NCBI GenBank assembly: GCA_947496065.1
Contig: CANMBF010000027.1
Span: 1-34,927 of the forward strand
Direction of reading: 5' to 3'
Origin: Bacteroidota bacterium
GTDB taxonomy: Bacteria; Bacteroidota; Bacteroidia; NS11-12g; UBA955
Length of the DNA: 34,927 nucleotides
Part shown: positions 19,588 to 29,089 of the stretch, in pieces
How the letters are laid out: each line of letters starts with the position of its first letter
Numbering within the stretch: position 1 is the stretch's first letter
Position numbers and translations under genes: made by a program
The notes under the pieces: generated by a model
Told to the model about the DNA's origin: nothing
The model's database searches: none
Seen by the model: only the letters and a program-made list of their open reading frames with translations

Positions 19588-22500
19588 ATGGCGAATAAAC
19601 AAACATACTGGAAAGGCGAAGAGGAATTATTAAGAACCAAAGATTTTTTGGCTACTCAAAAAAATGAATTTCACGAAGCGCTTCCTTTAGATGAAGTATT
19701 AAGTGAAAATAACTTGGGCTTAAGTGCCAACAGAAGAGATTTTCTTAAATTCTTTGGATTTAGTATCGCAGCTGTATCATTGGCTGCTTGTAACAAGACA
19801 CCAATTAGAAATGTCGTTCCTTATTTGGTTAAACCAGAAGAAATTACACCAGGTGTTGCTAATTATTACAATTCAACTTGTGGTGCTTGTAGTGCTGCAT
19901 GTGGTGTAACTGTAAAAACCAGAGAAGGTCGTCCGATTAAAGTGGATGGCAATATCAATTCACCAGTGTCTGGCGGTGCATTGTGCTCAACTGGTCAAGC
20001 TTCTCTTTTAAGTTTATATGACACCGAAAGATTAGCGGGCCCTCAAAAAGTAAAAGATAAAACCACCTCATTGGTAGAGTGGTCTGCAATCGATGCTGAT
20101 ATTACGAAGCAACTAACTGCTATCAATGCATCAGGTGGTAGAATTGCCATCGTTAGTGGTACTTTACACAGTCCTTCTACTTTAGCTGTTATCTCTGACT
20201 TTACTGCAAAATATACCAATACCAAACATGTAACTTACGATACAATTGGTTACGGTGGTATTTTATCTGCTAACCTAAGTTCATTTGGTAAGCAAGTATT
20301 GCCTTCTTACAATTTTGATAAAGCCAATGTGGTAGTAAGTTTCGGTGCCGATTTCTTAGGTACTTGGATCTCTCCAGTTGAATTTACCAAAGCTTGGGCT
20401 TCTAGAAGAAAAGTAGATGGCTTAAACAAAGAATCAAAAATCATTAAAACCATTCAGTTCGAAAGCAACCTTTCATTAACTGGTTCTAATGCCGATTACC
20501 GTTTCCCAATGAAATCTTCAATGGAAGCGATATACGTTACTGCATTGTACAATGCCATTGCTCAAAAAGCAGGTGTTGCACAAATGCCAATGGTTAAAAC
20601 TGGCGAACTAGCTGGTAGCGCCATTAAACAATCTGCCGAAGCATTATGGAACGAAAAAGGCGCAGGTCTTGTTGTTTCAGGTTCAAACGATGCACGTGTT
20701 CAAACTGTCATCAACGGTATCAACTTGTTGTTGAGCAACTACGGCACGACCATCGATTTAGAAAACCACTCTAATCAATACAAAGGTATTGATGCAGATT
20801 TCGCACAATTTGCCACAGATTTAAGCAATGGTAATTATAAAGCAGTTATTTTTTATAACACCAATCCGCTTTACAATTCACCAATGGCCGATATGATTTC
20901 TGCAGGTATTAAGAGAGCTTCATTGTCTGTTTCATTTGCAACAACTGCCGATGAAACTGCTATTGCGTGTCAATACATTGCGCCGGATAGTCACTACCTA
21001 GAATCTTGGAACGATGCTGAACCAAAAGCAGGTTTATTCCAATTAACCCAACCAACCATTTCTCCAGTATTCAAAACCCGTCAAGCACAAGATTCTTTAT
21101 TGACATGGGCAGGTTTAGCTACTAAGCCGTTGGTTGATCCATTTGCTAACAAAACCATCTTAACGCAAAAAGCGGAAGCTTCAATTTATTATTTATATAT
21201 TAAAAATAAATGGGCTGCAATGGGCATCAATAGCGATGCGACATTCAACAAAGCGTTACATGATGGTGTTCATAAATTAGATGCGAAAGCAGCAACAACG
21301 CCAGCATTCTCTGCTAACCTAAATGCAGTAGCTGCTGAGCTTGATAAAATGACCATTGATGCTAACGCCATTGATTTGGTATTGTATCAAAATGTGGCCA
21401 TTAAAGATGGTAGCTTAAGCAACAACCCTTGGTTGCAAGAAACACCAGATCCAATCAGCAAAGTAACATGGGACAATTATGTTTCATTGCCGAAAGCTTT
21501 AGCTGAAAAAGAAAAAATTGCCAATGGCGATTTAGTAGATATAAGCGTAGGTTCAAAAAGTATCAAAGGTTTACCCGTCTTCATACAACCGGGTCAAAGC
21601 AATATGACAGTTGGTCTTGCTTTAGGTTATGGTCGTAAAGGTAAAATCGGAGAGAAAGGCGCATTCGAAGCCATCGGTAAAAATGCGTTCCCATTTGTGA
21701 CCTATTCAAATGGTAACTTTAATTATGTAACCAATGGTGTTAAAATCACCAAAGCTGAAGGTAATTATGAGTTAGCGCAAACCCAAACACACTTCTCAAT
21801 CGAGGGTAGAGATTTGGTAAGAGAAACTACTTTCAACGAAATAAAAGAGAATCCAAAAGCGGGTAACGATAAAATGGCGCCACATCTTTATACCCTTTGG
21901 GAAACCAAAGATTACAAAAAAGATGGTGCTCCTAATCACCACTGGGCAATGTCTATCGACTTGAATACTTGCACTGGTTGCAGTGCTTGTGTTGTAAGTT
22001 GTAACATCGAAAACAACGTACCAGTAGTTGGCAGAGCGGAGGTAAGAAAAAGAAGAGAAATGCATTGGTTGCGTATCGATCGTTACTTCTCTTTCAGCAA
22101 CGTTAATAAAATCAATTACGAAGCCGATTTATTCCTTAAAAAGGATTACGAAGGCGATAGAATAACCAAAGAAAAAGGGTTAGAAGCCATTGATGCCATT
22201 GAAAGTAAAAAAGCGGACAAAGCCAAATACGATCATTGGGAAAATGTACAAGTGGTGCACCAACCAATGATGTGTCAACATTGCGGTCAAGCGCCATGCG
22301 AAACTGTTTGTCCAGTATTGGCCACTACGCATAGCACCGAAGGTTTAAATCAAATGACTTATAACCGTTGTATTGGTACTAAATATTGTGCAAACAACTG
22401 CCCTTATAAAGTAAGAAGATTCAATTGGTTCAGATACAATGACAACGACCAATTCGATTTCCATTTCAACAACGATTTAGGTAAAATGGTCATCAATCCT

Positions 22501-22806
22501 GATGTTACAGTGCGTACAAGAGGGGTGATGGAAAAATGTAGCATGTGTGTTCAAAGCATTCAAGCTGTTAAAGTAAAAGCAAAACGCGAGCGCAGAAAAA
22601 TCAGTGATGGCGAAATAAAAACCGCTTGTCAAAGAGCATGTCCTGCAGGTGCAATTGTTTTTGGTGATGTAAACGATCAAAACAGCGAAATCCACAAATT
22701 GTTCTTGAACGAACGCTCATACAGAGTTTTAGAGGAGTTGAATACCCAAACTGCTGTTAAATATTTAGTGAAAGTAAGAGATACCGAAACCGCAAAAAAA
22801 GCATAA
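19588..22806 (+). CDS. actB: Alternative Complex III subunit ActB, Fe-S molybdopterin-like protein
   Basis: The protein has 1072 aa. A twin-arginine signal (NRRDFLKFFGF, Arg49-Arg50) leads into a lipobox with Cys68 (SLAAC), so the mature protein is a Tat-exported lipoprotein. Residues about 90-750 form the ActB1 domain related to molybdopterin oxidoreductases, which carries no molybdenum cofactor in known complexes. It retains a CGACSAAC pattern (Cys98, 101, 105) and Cys133. The C-terminal ferredoxin domain has four Cys groups: CTGCSACVVSC (795-805), CQHCGQAPCETVC (896-908), CIGTKYCANNC (928-938), and CSMC (984-987) with CQRAC (1014-1018). It relays electrons from the membrane quinol sites to ActA hemes. 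It is the second gene of the operon. Confidence 0.96.
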   Translation: MANKQTYWKGEEELLRTKDFLATQKNEFHEALPLDEVLSENNLGLSANRRDFLKFFGFSIAAVSLAACNKTPIRNVVPYLVKPEEITPGVANYYNSTCGACSAACGVTVKTREGRPIKVDGNINSPVSGGALCSTGQASLLSLYDTERLAGPQKVKDKTTSLVEWSAIDADITKQLTAINASGGRIAIVSGTLHSPSTLAVISDFTAKYTNTKHVTYDTIGYGGILSANLSSFGKQVLPSYNFDKANVVVSFGADFLGTWISPVEFTKAWASRRKVDGLNKESKIIKTIQFESNLSLTGSNADYRFPMKSSMEAIYVTALYNAIAQKAGVAQMPMVKTGELAGSAIKQSAEALWNEKGAGLVVSGSNDARVQTVINGINLLLSNYGTTIDLENHSNQYKGIDADFAQFATDLSNGNYKAVIFYNTNPLYNSPMADMISAGIKRASLSVSFATTADETAIACQYIAPDSHYLESWNDAEPKAGLFQLTQPTISPVFKTRQAQDSLLTWAGLATKPLVDPFANKTILTQKAEASIYYLYIKNKWAAMGINSDATFNKALHDGVHKLDAKAATTPAFSANLNAVAAELDKMTIDANAIDLVLYQNVAIKDGSLSNNPWLQETPDPISKVTWDNYVSLPKALAEKEKIANGDLVDISVGSKSIKGLPVFIQPGQSNMTVGLALGYGRKGKIGEKGAFEAIGKNAFPFVTYSNGNFNYVTNGVKITKAEGNYELAQTQTHFSIEGRDLVRETTFNEIKENPKAGNDKMAPHLYTLWETKDYKKDGAPNHHWAMSIDLNTCTGCSACVVSCNIENNVPVVGRAEVRKRREMHWLRIDRYFSFSNVNKINYEADLFLKKDYEGDRITKEKGLEAIDAIESKKADKAKYDHWENVQVVHQPMMCQHCGQAPCETVCPVLATTHSTEGLNQMTYNRCIGTKYCANNCPYKVRRFNWFRYNDNDQFDFHFNNDLGKMVINPDVTVRTRGVMEKCSMCVQSIQAVKVKAKRERRKISDGEIKTACQRACPAGAIVFGDVNDQNSEIHKLFLNERSYRVLEELNTQTAVKYLVKVRDTETAKKA

Positions 22807-22831: not shown

Positions 22832-24184
22832 ATGATTCACGATTCAGTTATAAGACCAAATTTAGTAACAGGAGATAAGACCCTTCATGATGTAACCACA
22901 GAGATATGCCGTCCGATAGAAAACAAACCGACCTTGTCATGGTCAATTGGCTTCTCAATTTCGGTTATATTTCTAGGCTTACTTGGTTTAACTTTGTTCA
23001 TCACAGAATATACGGGTATAGGAACTTGGGGATTGAATAAATCTGTTCAGTGGGGTTGGGATATCACCAACTTCGTATTCTGGGTAGGTATTGGTCACGC
23101 GGGTACTTTGATTTCTGCTATCTTGTTATTGTTCCGTCAAAAATGGAGAATGTCAATTAATAGATCTGCTGAGGCCATGACCATCTTCGCGGTAATGTGT
23201 GCGGCCATTTTCCCATTCTTCCACATGGGTCGTCTTTGGGTAGGTATCTATTGGGTATTCCCATTGCCAAATGCTTTCGGTTCATTGTGGGTTAACTTCC
23301 ACTCACCATTGCTTTGGGATGTGTTCGCGATTTCTACATATTTCTCAGTATCATTAGTATTCTGGTACTTAGGTTTAATTCCAGATATCGCTACAGTAAG
23401 AGATAGAGCTAAAACAGCTGGTAGAAAATTCTGGTATAATTTCTTCTCAATGGGTTGGACAGGTTCTGTTAGAACTTGGAACAGATATGAGGTTGTGTCT
23501 TTAATCTTGGCGGGTATTTCTACTCCGTTGGTATTATCGGTTCACACCATTGTATCCATGGACTTTGCGACCTCGGTTGTACCGGGTTGGCACACCACCA
23601 TCTTCCCTCCATATTTTGTTGCCGGTGCGATTTTCTCTGGTTTCGGTATGGTGTTAACCTTATTGGTTATTGCACGTAAAGTAATGAACTACCAAGATTT
23701 TATTACCATTGGCCACCTAGAGGCCATGTGTAAAGTAGTCATGTTAACGGGTACCATGGTAGGTTTGGCTTATATCACTGAATTCTTCGTAGCTGCATAC
23801 TCTGGTGTTGAATACGAGCAATACGCATTTATTAATAGAGCAACCGGACCCTATTGGTGGGCTTATTGGAGCATGATGTCTTGTAACTTAATTGCACCTC
23901 AAGTATTCTGGTTCAAATGGGCGAGAACAACGCCTTGGTTTATCTTTATGTTATCTGTAGTGGTAAACGTAGGGATGTGGTTCGAGCGTTTCGTAATTAT
24001 CGTTACGTCGTTGCACAGAGAATACTTGCCTTCAGGTTGGGTAATGTACTCACCAACAAGAATAGAAATTGGCATCTTCTTAGGGACCTTCGGTTTATTC
24101 TTTACATGTTTCTTCTTATTCAGTAAGTTTTTACCTGTAATCAATATGTCAGAGTTGAAAGCCATCTTAAAAAATAGAGAATAA
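22832..24184 (+). CDS. actC: Alternative Complex III subunit ActC, NrfD/PsrC-like quinol-site membrane protein
   Basis: This 450-aa polytopic protein starts with a soluble segment of about 35 residues ([18 protein letters not shown]) and then has about ten hydrophobic helices, the NrfD/PsrC layout. Conserved-looking features are the helix segment FFHMGRLW near residue 131, followed by VFPLPN, and the loop [19 protein letters not shown]. In known Alternative Complex III structures ActC binds menaquinol near the periplasmic face and may take part in proton movement; which residues do so here is inferred from the family only. It begins 25 bases after actB, and actD follows after 19 bases. ActF later in the operon is its paralogue. 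Confidence 0.95.
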
Positions 24185-25565: not shown

Positions 25566-26984
25566 ATGAGCCACGGACACGATATTCATATCAAACAAGA
25601 GAATTTTATTTTCTCATCTAAAACAAAGAATTTTTGTTATGCATTAATAGTGATAGGCGCTATTTTGACTGCCATTGGTATATTTACTTTACCAAAAGCG
25701 GAAGATCATAAAGCTGAAGGTCACCAAACAGAAATGGCCGCTACCGAGCACCACACGGATGCAGCTGCTGCTGAACATCACATGGCTGCTGAAGAGCATG
25801 TTACCAATTATCAGAACATTCATGGTATTGATACCTTTAGAGACAATGAGCAAATACACGGTGTGCCTGCCGAGCATGCAAAACCAATTGCGACTAGAAT
25901 CTGGGCAAACCTATTGTTAAATGCTTACCTTATACTTTTAATTTCTGCATGTGGTTTGTTCTTCTTTGCATTACAATACATTGCAAACGCTGGTTGGGCT
26001 ACCTTGTTAATCCGTATTCCGCAAGCCATCAGTACCTTCCTTCCGGTTGGTGCTTTAATTATCTTAGCGGTATTCTTTATCGATGGTGAAAACATTTACC
26101 ACTGGGTGCATTACGAACACCAACACATTGCAAAAGGTGCTGCGGGTTACGATGCCATCTTAGCCGATAAGTCGTGGTTCTTGAACTCGAAATTAATCGT
26201 TGGATTCTTGATTGCTATTCCTTTGATTTGGTGGTTATTTGGTAAAAAATTAAGAGGGTTATCTTACACAGAAGATTCAGAAGGTGGTTTAATGTTCTTT
26301 AAAAAATCAATCACTTTCTCTGCAGCCTTTACCATTTTCTTTGGTTTTGGTTTGTCAATCTTCAGTTGGGTAGTAATGATGAGTGTGGATGCACACTGGT
26401 ACAGTACCATGTTCTCTTTATATAACTTTGCAACTGGTTGGGTGACTTGTATCTCTATCATTGCTTTGTTTGTATTGTTCTTAAAACGCAACGGCTACTT
26501 AACTTTAGTAACCGACGAGCATATTCACGATTTAGGTAAATTCATGTTCGCCTTCTCAATTTTCTGGACTTACCTTTGGGTATCTCAGTTCTTATTGATT
26601 TGGTATGCGAACATTCCTGAAGAAACCATCTATTTCTACAAACGTTGGGAAATGCCTTTCAAGATTAATTTCTTCTTCAACTTGGTAATGAATTTCTTAA
26701 TTCCATTCCTAGTATTGATGACCAGAAACGCAAAACGCAATCCGAAAATTTTAACCTTCGTTGCTTTGTGTATCATCATCGGTCACTGGAACGATATGTA
26801 CTTAATGATTATGCCTGGCACTTTAGATCACCAAGCAGGTATCGGTGCATTAGAAATCGGAATGACCATTTTGTTTGCAGGTGTATTCATCTATTGGGTA
26901 CTAACAGCGCTAAGCAAAAAAGGATTGGTTCCTGTGAACCACCCTTACATTGAAGAAAGTGCTCACCACGATGTGGGTGTATAA
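25566..26984 (+). CDS. actF: Alternative Complex III subunit ActF, NrfD-like membrane protein
   Basis: This 472-aa polytopic protein is paralogous to ActC. The N-terminus (MSHGHDIHIKQENFIFSSK) precedes a first helix (about 24-43). A hydrophilic insert of about 65 residues follows, with ten histidines between residues 48 and 104 (for example AEHHMAAEEH). About nine further helices follow, with HYEHQHIAKG, WNDMYLMIMPG and the ending VNHPYIEESAHHDVG. In the family it pairs with ActC to form the membrane arm. It starts 2 bases after actE, and an intrinsic terminator begins 20 bases after its stop, so it is the last gene of the operon. No oxidase subunits follow. Confidence 0.95.
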   Translation: MSHGHDIHIKQENFIFSSKTKNFCYALIVIGAILTAIGIFTLPKAEDHKAEGHQTEMAATEHHTDAAAAEHHMAAEEHVTNYQNIHGIDTFRDNEQIHGVPAEHAKPIATRIWANLLLNAYLILLISACGLFFFALQYIANAGWATLLIRIPQAISTFLPVGALIILAVFFIDGENIYHWVHYEHQHIAKGAAGYDAILADKSWFLNSKLIVGFLIAIPLIWWLFGKKLRGLSYTEDSEGGLMFFKKSITFSAAFTIFFGFGLSIFSWVVMMSVDAHWYSTMFSLYNFATGWVTCISIIALFVLFLKRNGYLTLVTDEHIHDLGKFMFAFSIFWTYLWVSQFLLIWYANIPEETIYFYKRWEMPFKINFFFNLVMNFLIPFLVLMTRNAKRNPKILTFVALCIIIGHWNDMYLMIMPGTLDHQAGIGALEIGMTILFAGVFIYWVLTALSKKGLVPVNHPYIEESAHHDVGV

Positions 26985-27003: not shown

Positions 27004-27037
27004 AAAAAGGCAGTATGATGTTCATACTGCCTTTTTT
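27004..27037 (+). terminator. Strong intrinsic terminator of the act operon
   Basis: GGCAGTATGA (27009-27018) pairs fully with TCATACTGCC (27022-27031) around a 3-base loop. The stem is extended by flanking A and T tracts to about 15 bp and followed by a T run. The A tract on the left means it can also act on minus-strand transcripts arriving from the nuclease-like gene. Confidence 0.9.
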
Positions 27038-27092: not shown

Positions 27093-28490
27093 TTAAATAT
27101 TGCTCTCAAACTCATTGATAACACTCTGTGGTGTTACCAAAATGCTTAGACTTACCAAGCGTTCGATAAGTGAAGACAATCTAATTTTGTCTTTGATTTT
27201 AAATGCCAATAGATATAGCAAGGCATCTGAAGTTAGGAACATCATCTTTTTGATATCGGTGTTCCAAGAAATATAATTAATGAATTCGCTGTGATTCGAT
27301 TCGAATGCGCTGCACACTAGCATAAAGCCGACCTTCTTATAGCCTTCGCGCTTTAAGTCGCTACAATGGTCGTTAATGGCCTCTTTTAAGGCACGGTCGT
27401 CGGTGGTATTAAAGTAGGCGCCGCTATCGCGTTTAGTATCTAAAATAAAGGCTAAATTTTCTTCTCTGAATTTTACCAAGCAATACGGATTCTTGCGCAC
27501 TCCTTGTGGTAAAATGGTGATTTCGAAATCGAGTTGTTTAAAAGCTTCGGCAACAGTTGGTTCAAATAAGGCTTTGTCGAGCTGGCAATCAGGCTGACTG
27601 AATTCAAACAAACGCGCCACCTTGGGAATTAAATAATCATACACATCGAATTGCACCACTTGGTTTACCGCCTCAATTGGTTTTACTGGTTCAGCCTTTG
27701 GTAAAATCACTTCTTCAACAAATGTTTTTTCAACGGGCGAAGGCGCCTTCACACTGTTCAACACTGGCACTTCTTCTTCAACAGGTGCATTCGGATTAAT
27801 GATATTCGAATATTTGAAATTCCAGAAGGTGTGTTCTACATCCCAATTGGAAACATTTTTTTTGCTATGCTCCTTTAAAATCTCTTTAATTTCTTCATTG
27901 AGGTGGTAAAAGAAATCATAGTTAGCTTTCTGCGCAGTTTGGTCTTTCCATATACCAATCTCTCTAAAGCCATTGACTAATGAAGAGTATAGGATGGGCC
28001 ATTTGCTTGGATTATGGACCTGCCAAAAGTAGGAGAGGAAATAACCAACCGAACCAGGATATGGCACTTTGCGTTTATCTTCTGCTACTAGGAAAATAGC
28101 ATTGGTGAATTTTTCTAACTCTTCTATTTTTTTGAACGCGTCTTTTAAATCTTTGGGTTCAGCAATTACTGTTTTTAAAAGTTCCGCTAATTTATCAATG
28201 CCTTGGTCATTCGATTTCAACAATTGATTGAAATACATCTGACCCATTTTGGCACTGAAATTCCATAAGTTATTATGGCGATTAAAAATATCGAGTGCAG
28301 CTTTAAATTCGTAAATGGTAATGTCTTCGTTAATAAAATCGCGAATAATGACTTTAATAACCTCGATGGCTTCTAAACGACTATTGTCAATATTGTTGAC
28401 TAATTGACCGTTGGTGTCGGTAACAAAATGATTGGCATTTAGATGCTCATCCCATATCTCAATGATTTGCTTTTTAGAAAGTTCGTCCAT
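27093..28490 (-). CDS. Solitary protein with a FokI-like PD-(D/E)XK cleavage domain
   Basis: The protein has 465 aa. Residues 1-230 are helical and hydrophilic and include PYPGSVGYFLSYFWQVHNP and KWPILYSSLVNGFREIG, a pattern I associate with N-terminal modules of restriction or defence proteins. Residues 231-278 form a Pro/Glu/Val linker. Residues about 280-445 align by eye with the FokI cleavage domain: FEPTVAEAF (309-317) with the FokI helix before its active site, GVRKNPYC (330-337) with FokI SRKPDGA, FILDTKRDSGAYF (348-360) with its VDTK region (Asp351, Lys353), and VGFMLVCSAF (387-396) with FKFLFVSGHF. The first catalytic Asp of FokI is Pro/Asn here. No methyltransferase or helicase is adjacent. 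A restriction-like or nucleic-acid-processing role is inferred, and activity is uncertain. Confidence 0.75.
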   Translation of the reverse strand: MDELSKKQIIEIWDEHLNANHFVTDTNGQLVNNIDNSRLEAIEVIKVIIRDFINEDITIYEFKAALDIFNRHNNLWNFSAKMGQMYFNQLLKSNDQGIDKLAELLKTVIAEPKDLKDAFKKIEELEKFTNAIFLVAEDKRKVPYPGSVGYFLSYFWQVHNPSKWPILYSSLVNGFREIGIWKDQTAQKANYDFFYHLNEEIKEILKEHSKKNVSNWDVEHTFWNFKYSNIINPNAPVEEEVPVLNSVKAPSPVEKTFVEEVILPKAEPVKPIEAVNQVVQFDVYDYLIPKVARLFEFSQPDCQLDKALFEPTVAEAFKQLDFEITILPQGVRKNPYCLVKFREENLAFILDTKRDSGAYFNTTDDRALKEAINDHCSDLKREGYKKVGFMLVCSAFESNHSEFINYISWNTDIKKMMFLTSDALLYLLAFKIKDKIRLSSLIERLVSLSILVTPQSVINEFESNI

Positions 28491-29089
28491 TTGAAATTAG
28501 AAATTGAGGGCGTAATTGAAAAAAGTAAATGGCGCTAAAATTATTATTTTTTGAATGTCTATAAAAAATAGGTAATAATTTGATAACCATATTTATAGCG
28601 TATAATATATTCAAAAAAATGAATTGCAACCAATTGGAAATCATACAAAGAGCGGTGTGTAATTGGAGAGTTAAAACTAAAATCATTTTAATGACAGACC
28701 CCGGCAGTCTGTAAGCTGATATTTTGAAATAAAAAACCATTTTAAAGCCTTTGTTTACAGCAGTGTAAAAATCAAAGCGGAACTTTGAAGCAAAAAATGA
28801 AATAAATGTTTCCAACGCAGTTTTAGTTGGGCAAATATGCTAAAATTTTAAGTAAATTATACTATTTCTAAGCATTTATTTTTAATAGTTTAGTCTTTTA
28901 ATCTGTGTTTTATTCAGGCTATTAGGTAGTATTTTATTACTAATCTTATTCAAATAATTGGAAATATGATAGTTGTAAATCATTTTCTATAAAAAATATA
29001 AGTTTATAACAATGAAATACTTACTTGAATTTTATGCATTCAAAGGGCCATCTTAATCTTACAATTGGGGTTCATTTTAATCAGCCATT
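28491..29089. other. AT-rich intergenic region without a supported gene
   Basis: About 600 bases with no convincing coding frame. A minus-strand frame at 28474-28815 reads through but has biased Phe/Ile/Leu composition and overlaps the start of the nuclease-like gene. One small dyad is present: ACAGAC (28694-28699) and GTCTGT (28707-28712) with a GC-rich 7-base loop, in a single copy. The promoter of the nuclease-like gene should be in the first part, but no TAnnTTTG box was found close to it. Confidence 0.6.

Follow-up and report, generated by a model that had tools for sequence, protein, structure and literature searches.

The window analysed here is a DNA stretch of 34,927 nucleotides from a Bacteroidota bacterium (GTDB lineage Bacteria; Bacteroidota; Bacteroidia; NS11-12g; UBA955; assembly GCA_947496065.1, contig CANMBF010000027.1), which constitutes an entire contig (C27) of a 2.9-Mb genome. 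It contains an open reading frame (ORF) of 465 codons at 27093-28490 on the minus strand, in a single frame, and the evidence leans somewhat towards this gene being a domesticated, catalytically degenerate restriction nuclease, the product of which would be a non-cutting or weakly cutting reader of DNA marks. As predicted from sequence, the protein consists of an N-terminal domain of the McrB type, a loose linker and a FokI-type domain from which the first catalytic aspartate is gone, and intact relatives of the protein adjoin type I restriction (hsd) genes. The layout of the gene is as follows (dN, nonsynonymous divergence):

27093 to 28490, minus strand: the whole gene, 465 amino acids, with the ATG start at 28490 and the stop at 27093-27095, as placed by the ORF listing and by orthologues
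27801 to 28490, minus strand: the N-domain, residues 1-230, mostly helical and common to the N-terminus of a McrB-like ATPase
27648 to 27800, minus strand: the linker, residues 231-281, rich in Pro, Glu and Val and fast evolving (high dN)
27096 to 27647, minus strand: the FokI-like cleavage domain, residues 282-465

The window protein alone had no credible match in Pfam, NCBIfam, PADLOC or the PDB sequences (a UvrD row in Pfam, at E 1.4, was rejected as chance-level), and the family profile and family members also gave nothing usable in annotation searches. In the whole-protein model (mean predicted local distance difference test (pLDDT) score of 62), residues 3-223 form a module that is largely helical, the residues from approximately 224 to 309 are unstructured, with pLDDT below 50 across residues 224-318, and the C-terminal domain has the order alpha-beta-beta-beta-alpha-beta-alpha.

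The C-terminal half is predicted, from sequence and modelling, to be a diverged FokI-type cleavage domain, arranged like the PD-(D/E)XK fold of FokI. The Pfam model PF09254 was not listed for the window protein up to E 10, nor for its C-domain alone up to E 1; it was passed (cut-off 25) by the full-length relatives from genomes G871 (locus L055, 28.4 bits) and G1032 (L056, 41.1 bits), and the relative from G377 (L029) scored just below the cut-off (24.6 bits, E 2e-5). Residues 287-434 matched a FokI-like haloarchaeal protein of 180 amino acids encoded on a Halalkalicoccus plasmid (E 2e-9), which was itself matched by PF09254 below cut-off (E 4e-4) and was scored by the C-domain profile at 78 bits, compared with 6.2 bits or less for shuffled and reversed decoys. 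On structural realignment of the C-domain, Nt.BspD6I, FokI and R.BspD6I2 (2p14, Z 7.0) were placed on top (Z 7.4-7.0; root mean square deviation (rmsd) 3.4-4.3 over 127-154 residues), with the next rows at Z 5.1 or less. These Z-scores are middling and, due to the moderate confidence of the model and the result of Foldseek with the full-length model (best E 0.2, FokI absent from the 50 rows shown), the assignment of the fold is based on sequence and structure together. Against PDB sequences, the C-domain profile (A5) gave no match up to E 1, while of the single relatives the L056 protein gave chance-level matches only and the L029 protein matched FokI at E 0.5, the motifs of the two being aligned.

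In FokI and Nt.BspD6I the recognition part is N-terminal and the cleavage domain C-terminal, an order also seen in the window protein. The C-terminal fold is alike in these type IIS restriction and nicking enzymes (PF09254), whereas the N-domain of the window protein differs from theirs, its first catalytic aspartate is missing and the lysine varies across the genus. The same nuclease branch also includes a different architecture, noted in G468 (L030:997-2037), in which a homing-endonuclease-associated repeat (PF18780) is fused to a Mrr/FokI-like nuclease with an intact PDG...NSK motif.

Three sets of codons were of interest in the active site:

27483 to 27485, minus strand: codon 336 (Tyr), at the site of the first catalytic Asp; across the ten full-length proteins of the genus the column is YYYYYLCYYY, compared with DDDD in the four relatives that are intact
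27432 to 27440, minus strand: codons 351-353 (Asp-Thr-Lys), the second half of the catalytic motif; the Asp and Lys columns read DDDDDDDDDD and KKKKKQFTHH in the genus
27456 to 27470, minus strand: codons 341-345 (Phe-Arg-Glu-Glu-Asn, or FREEN), invariant in 10/10 genus members; only Glu344 is invariant in the intact relatives

The catalytic residues of FokI (D450, D467 and K469) correspond to a motif that reads REPDAIIKFSEEHVAFIIDAK in the intact relative from G1032 and KNPYCLVKFREENLAFILDTK in the window protein. The first catalytic Asp was found to be gone in all ten full-length members of the genus, with Tyr336 in its place in the window, while the second (Asp351) is kept in all 14 proteins (the ten genus members and four intact relatives). 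Lys353 is kept in the window and lost in five of the ten genus members; in the intact relatives elsewhere this column is KKKK and the PD...DAK motif is whole. As the first Asp has been lost in 10/10 members and the Lys in 5/10, the window protein is probably not a normally working nuclease, and the simplest history on the gene tree would be that the ancestor of the genus copies lost the first Asp and that the Lys disappeared later, in the sub-clade formed by G005, G019, G008, G016 and G010.

The sequence-only reading had described a FokI-like C-domain with a DTK active-site strand, joined to a separate and unrecognised helical N-domain. Both modules were recovered, in the model and through the matches of the relatives to PF09254, and DTK is present, but the partner of its Asp is Tyr336 and its Lys varies within the genus, so that the active site cannot be described as intact.

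The main rival to a non-cutting or weakly cutting reader is a solitary nuclease that still works through a rearranged active site, another acidic residue having replaced the lost Asp, and that cuts marked or foreign DNA; PD-(D/E)XK enzymes with moved catalytic residues are known. Residual catalysis holds this place because Asp351 is invariant and the window keeps Lys353, as does its whole clade, and the purifying selection described below would also be expected of a working enzyme, as would the rates in the two closest pairs, where the nuclease half does not outpace the N-domain. We nevertheless consider this explanation unlikely: no acidic residue is fixed in the genus within residues 328-340, which precede and lie on the strand of the lost Asp, the Lys position holds any of K, Q, F, T and H, it is the nuclease half that evolves faster across the genus, and the invariant FREEN block lies in the turn between model strands 337-341 and 346-352.

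Both domains are kept under purifying selection, as the ratio of nonsynonymous to synonymous divergence (dN/dS) between the window and its nearest relative was 0.03 for the N-domain and 0.05 for the C-domain (0.09 for the linker). Values for the N and C domains were 0.03-0.09 wherever dS was unsaturated, nine chosen pairs being compared, in seven of which dS was saturated in at least one domain. This selection makes a decaying pseudogene in the course of being lost very improbable, as do the ten full-length open frames, nine of which are 41-95% identical to that of the window, even though the catalytic residues are gone, 6/17 genomes of the genus (two of them 99% complete) are without the gene and a truncated solitary copy occurs in G842, which belongs to another family.

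The constraint on the two halves is reversed between the genus and the restriction-linked copies: compared with the N-domain, the nuclease half shows faster divergence across the genus and slower divergence in the restriction-linked copies. The mean ratio of C-domain to N-domain distance was 1.38 in the genus (95% range 1.06-1.77) compared with 0.68 (0.49-0.92) in the intact copies, without overlap of the ranges over 500 column bootstraps, and the C distance exceeded the N distance in 41/45 genus pairs versus 0/6 intact pairs (these pairs not being independent). The test used 145 of the 184 C-domain columns, since the G1256 protein is cut by a contig end, and G018 (also outside alignment A1), G842, G1243, P0001, P0003 and L030 lay outside it.

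Residues 1-238 of the window protein matched the N-terminus of an 'AAA family ATPase' (NGM15_RS17665) encoded on plasmid NZ_CP099998.1 of Natronosalvus halobius (tblastn E 4e-28, 29% identity), so the N-domain, unrecognised by the sequence-only reading, has a relative. The N-domain profile scored this ATPase at 141 bits, compared with 9.8 bits or less for decoys, and the homology was also apparent in alignment A4. Its ATPase part was assigned to AAA_5 (E 1e-16); its best NCBIfam name was McrB (E 3e-14, far below the cut-off of that model), and it carries MNTLD, in keeping with the NxxD signature of McrB described in PMC11090510. The gene next to it has a PD...EVK motif as in McrC proteins, with no match to any hidden Markov model, and is McrC-like by motif only. 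On this sequence evidence a McrB-like protein carries this domain as its N-terminal module, and a methylcytosine-binding domain is reported at the corresponding N-terminal place of E. coli McrB (PMC11090510). The start of the haloarchaeal ATPase seems to be annotated 89 codons too far downstream, judging by the homology and an in-frame ATG upstream (NZ_CP099998.1 164479-164745; L049:8968-9234).

Although their N-terminal domains are homologous, NGM15_RS17665 continues into an AAA+ ATPase and has a McrC-like neighbour (by its motif), whereas the window protein continues into the FokI-type domain and has no partner. Compared with type IV restriction by McrBC, the N-terminal domain of a McrB-type protein is present and both the AAA+ GTPase domain and the McrC partner are absent; no AAA domain was found in the window protein with Pfam, and one McrC-like query had no match in the window or the genus loci.

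When the N-domain was modelled alone, the best of five models had a pLDDT of 80 and a predicted template modelling score (pTM) of 0.79, and two of the five had pLDDT below 60. The first six Foldseek rows were Ogg2-type 8-oxoguanine DNA glycosylases (E 0.49-1.8, TM-scores 0.26-0.41), and realignment gave Z-scores of 7.5 (3knt; rmsd 3.1 over 124 residues), 7.2 (3n0u), 6.8 (3fhf) and 5.3 (3fhg), all of them Ogg2 glycosylases. MagIII, Mag1, Mag2, MutY and OGG1 were frequent among the lower rows, with unrelated helical proteins interspersed. The model thus bears a weak resemblance to the glycosylase fold, and the fold may be similar to that of the Ogg2-type enzymes MjOgg, TmOgg and SsOgg (Z 7.5-5.3), with which no similarity was found at the sequence level; the N-domain profile also gave nothing credible against PDB sequences.

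This resemblance allows an alternative in which the enzymatic part of the protein is the N-domain, as an Ogg2-type (HhH-GPD) enzyme that excises bases or acts as an AP (apurinic/apyrimidinic) lyase, and in which the FokI-like domain dimerises and clamps the DNA. The four best model rows are archaeal and bacterial 8-oxoguanine DNA glycosylases, many lower rows are HhH-GPD proteins and the N-domain is the more conserved half across the genus, all of which would suit such an enzyme. It is nonetheless improbable in our view, given that the Ogg-HhH model PF22175 has no match in the genome of the window, that no profile-profile similarity to eight Ogg2 proteins was found, and that a recognition role accords better than a catalytic one with the presence of the same domain both on FokI domains and on a McrB-like ATPase.

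Helical proteins of approximately 200 amino acids, considered as possible phasins, also matched the N-domain profile, at positions 9-104 (E from 3e-6 to 2e-3 by genome and, for the four that were rescored, 19-27 bits, compared with 9.8 or less for decoys). The match is above chance; a phasin identity was rejected because the McrB-like match is far stronger and spans the whole domain. Several of these loci (L031-L035, L037 and L043) adjoin PHA synthase-like genes, as judged by eye, and 'LDFYNKHTNL' may be compared with 'LDSYNKHNNL' in the two sets of proteins.

All four intact two-domain copies, which belong to another family of the same class, directly adjoin type I hsdM or hsdR: the gene lies after hsdM in G377 and G1032, after hsdM-hsdS-prrC-hsdR in G871 and after hsdR in G1256. 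From this, the ancestry of the window gene is probably in restriction loci. These four homologues have the two-domain architecture of the window protein and differ from it in their intact PD...DAK motif, their hsd neighbours and their slower nuclease half. In addition, a fragment in G1243 adjoins an Eco57I-type methylase. The G1032 locus also contains QatA, QatC, QatD and a PtuA/HNH pair, and the G377 locus a gene with a QueC domain, like QatC, and a Fic gene.

In the window, the gene is convergent with the plus-strand ORF at 25566-26984, the last gene of what the sequence-only reading named the act operon, and no gene was found there with similarity to hsdM, hsdS, hsdR, Eco57I-type methylase, PrrC or McrC queries (tblastn, E 1e-3; other methylase types were not queried, here or in the loci below). 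The 12 loci from 11 genomes of the genus (111 kb in total, 2.4-34.9 kb each, several being only 2.4-4.4 kb long) likewise gave no match to hsd, PrrC, Eco57I-type or McrC-like queries. The gene therefore differs from a type II restriction-modification system in having no hsdM- or Eco57I-like methylase beside it, in the window or in the 11 other genus loci, and from a type I accessory gene in that 0/12 genus loci, compared with 4/4 intact relatives, have it beside hsdM, hsdS or hsdR. The gene is thus isolated in the window, as the sequence-only reading had it, and the same reading's remark that no methyltransferase lies nearby is true of the window but does not extend to the intact relatives.

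Dependence on a type I system in trans was also considered, and is unlikely because six of the 11 carrier genomes (G000, G005, G010, G016, G017 and G018) have no N6-methylase over cut-off anywhere in the genome; G000 and G016 are 97-98% complete and the other four 82-90%. The genome of the window has a single N6-methylase match, below cut-off.

In EcoprrI, according to PMC3874165, the gene for the latent nuclease PrrC is embedded in a type I operon. The G871 homologue is similarly a nuclease gene in a type I locus, after hsdM-hsdS-prrC-hsdR; PrrC is a tRNA nuclease unrelated to the FokI-type protein, and the likeness is one of gene location. Two of the loci, L056 (G1032) and L047 (G377), are dense defence islands with Qat-type genes upstream of hsdM and the FokI-type gene. 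No match to one hsdS and two hsdR queries was found in these two stretches, and hsdM without hsdS together with the FokI-type fusion might constitute a system of its own.

Relatives of the window protein were found in 11/17 genomes of its own genus and in 0/53 genomes of the other genera of the family (70 searched), and all 11 positive genomes among 108 order-wide were of this genus. A class-wide sample of 395 genomes yielded one further full-length relative, that of G377 (E 2e-126), with 13 genomes matching the profile only partly (E of 0.1 or less), and a phylum-wide sample of 395 genomes yielded no other full-length relative. In the family of G377 the gene was present in 4/244 genomes (G377, G871, G1032 and, as the truncated copy, G842), and a search of 348 genomes of the order of G377 with the N-domain profile added the contig-end copy of G1256 and the fragment of G1243. 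The three complete two-domain relatives (G377, G871 and G1032) are 40-48% identical per domain to the window protein. The distribution is therefore patchy, a point that had been raised in the sequence-only reading. Ten carrier genomes have one copy each, and the eleventh (G018) has one copy split over two contig ends, as determined by protein and profile searches. The gene-less genomes of the genus include G011 and G015, which are 99% complete, and four that are 68-85% complete; in one of the six, G013, the contig ends within the last act gene, and some of the absences may be assembly gaps.

A phage origin was rejected, the G377 protein being unmatched in phage records and profile A2 finding no relative in IMG/VR. 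The solitary truncated copy of G842 (L057:512-1327) keeps the N-domain, and its frame ends soon after the linker; it adjoins a gene resembling those of RND-type efflux pumps (by eye) and may be a case in which the nuclease half was lost a second time, independently.

Within the genus the gene was found in two main positions. It lies beside the act operon in the window, L002 and L003 directly and in L004 by virtue of the genes on the other side (the contig ending there), and beside a DUF58-like gene (named by eye) in L005, L012, L015 and L016; L011 and L014 each have one other neighbour in common with the latter group, and L010 is elsewhere. No neighbour is common to the two positions. For eight shared genomes the branching of the gene tree matched that of a tree built from four act proteins (unrooted, compared by eye) and, on the strength of this agreement and the two stable positions, the gene, solitary in this genus, is taken to be vertically inherited within it. 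An ordinary defence gene, the product of which would be a dead nuclease subunit working with an intact subunit from another locus in the manner of heterodimeric nicking enzymes, is hard to reconcile with this inheritance, which is unlike that of most defence islands, with the single copy per carrier genome and with the lack of a neighbour common to the two positions. It has in its favour that the top structural match, Nt.BspD6I, comes from a heterodimeric enzyme, the small subunit of which also matches (2p14, Z 7.0), and we judge it to be decidedly improbable.

For the degenerate restriction nuclease favoured here, the N-domain would bind DNA and read a modified, damaged or otherwise marked base, a role suggested by the McrB recognition domain at the same place and by the base-flipping fold that the model resembles. 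The FokI-type domain would no longer cut efficiently and may serve for dimerisation or as a DNA clamp, and the protein would mark, occupy or signal on certain DNA sites instead of cleaving them; in short, marked DNA would be recognised by a FokI-like dimer with no cutting or very weak cutting. The sequence-only reading had guessed at a modification-dependent nuclease: the N-domain in common with a McrB-like ATPase lends support to the first part of this guess, while the second is weakened by the probable lack of normal nuclease activity. A more specific version, in which cleavage was lost in the ancestor of the genus and the protein became a housekeeping-like mark reader at fixed places in the genome, with a regulatory or genome-protection role, a recognition domain perhaps of glycosylase fold and the former nuclease as a binding or dimerisation module, is plausible but tentative. 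Dead nucleases and transposases recruited as DNA-binding proteins provide a parallel, the source in this case being a FokI-type restriction enzyme.

Several observations weigh against a degenerate reader of DNA marks. No partner gene points to a pathway, and one example only of a McrB-like ATPase with this N-domain was found. The glycosylase-like fold is based on a Z-score of 7.5 and low TM-scores, which chance can yield with helical models, and profile-profile comparison (hhalign) of the N-domain with eight Ogg2 proteins (those with the K.AS.FLR frame, of 20 fetched Ogg-HhH loci) gave no similarity (probability 0.2%). The retention of Asp351 in 10/10 and of Lys353 in 5/10 genus members may point to catalysis that is residual or altered. 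The reversal is seen in the wider pairs, but the nuclease half does not evolve faster in the two closest ones (dN of 0.024 for N and 0.018 for C between the window and G017, and of 0.059 and 0.051 between G016 and G010), and as dN is slightly lower in the C-domain of both pairs its excess divergence may reflect an older episode rather than a present one. The comparison of distances is, moreover, anchored by four intact copies only, one of which is cut by a contig end.

Among the matches listed from the open-licence full-text literature, judging by their titles and the opening of their abstracts, a fusion of a McrB-type N-domain to a FokI domain was not described, a weak indication that it is new. 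Engineered nucleases rely heavily on FokI domains, and the present family would offer a natural fusion of such a domain to a McrB-like, recognition-type domain, the copies beside type I genes being intact and those of a separate genus inactivated but nonetheless retained. Nature would thereby supply both an active and a dead version with which to ask what this N-domain reads, and also a restriction enzyme in which selection pressure visibly shifts from the half that cuts to the half that reads. Should the N-domain prove to be a reader with a glycosylase fold, it would represent a new kind of base-recognition module for type IV-like restriction.

With regard to the local setting, orthologues occupy the same place in three further species (75-95% identity), and the following features were identified around the gene:

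27004 to 27036, minus strand: a terminator-like hairpin of 15 pairs, a near-perfect inverted repeat between the gene and the act operon which may serve both
28795 to 28839, minus strand: a block of 45 nucleotides, approximately 305-350 nucleotides upstream of the start, with a short inverted repeat CCAAC...GTTGG
28856 to 28885, minus strand: a promoter-like site just upstream of the 45-nucleotide block, with 10/12 consensus matches; weak evidence

The 45-nucleotide block differs at only two positions across the four species, the proteins of which go down to 75% identity to that of the window. Its 24-nucleotide core was present in 11/112 loci (exact matches only), all of them copies of those four genomes, and the block could be a leader or promoter element. 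Promoter-like sites numbered 15 in total, 11.6 being the chance expectation. The search for tRNAs was negative, as was that for Rfam families at their gathering scores. A short upstream ORF on the minus strand, within 28474-28815, overlaps the gene start and has blastp counterparts in L002 and L004 and none in L003; it may be coding or may be just conserved upstream DNA.

Within the act operon, the ORF at 19588-22806 was over the cut-off for a TAT-variant molybdopterin oxidoreductase model. In G009 (contig C38; L078 and L080) the ActC-like gene, at 22832-24184 in the window, is split into two overlapping frames, one of which has internal stops, and this is probably an assembly or sequencing error.

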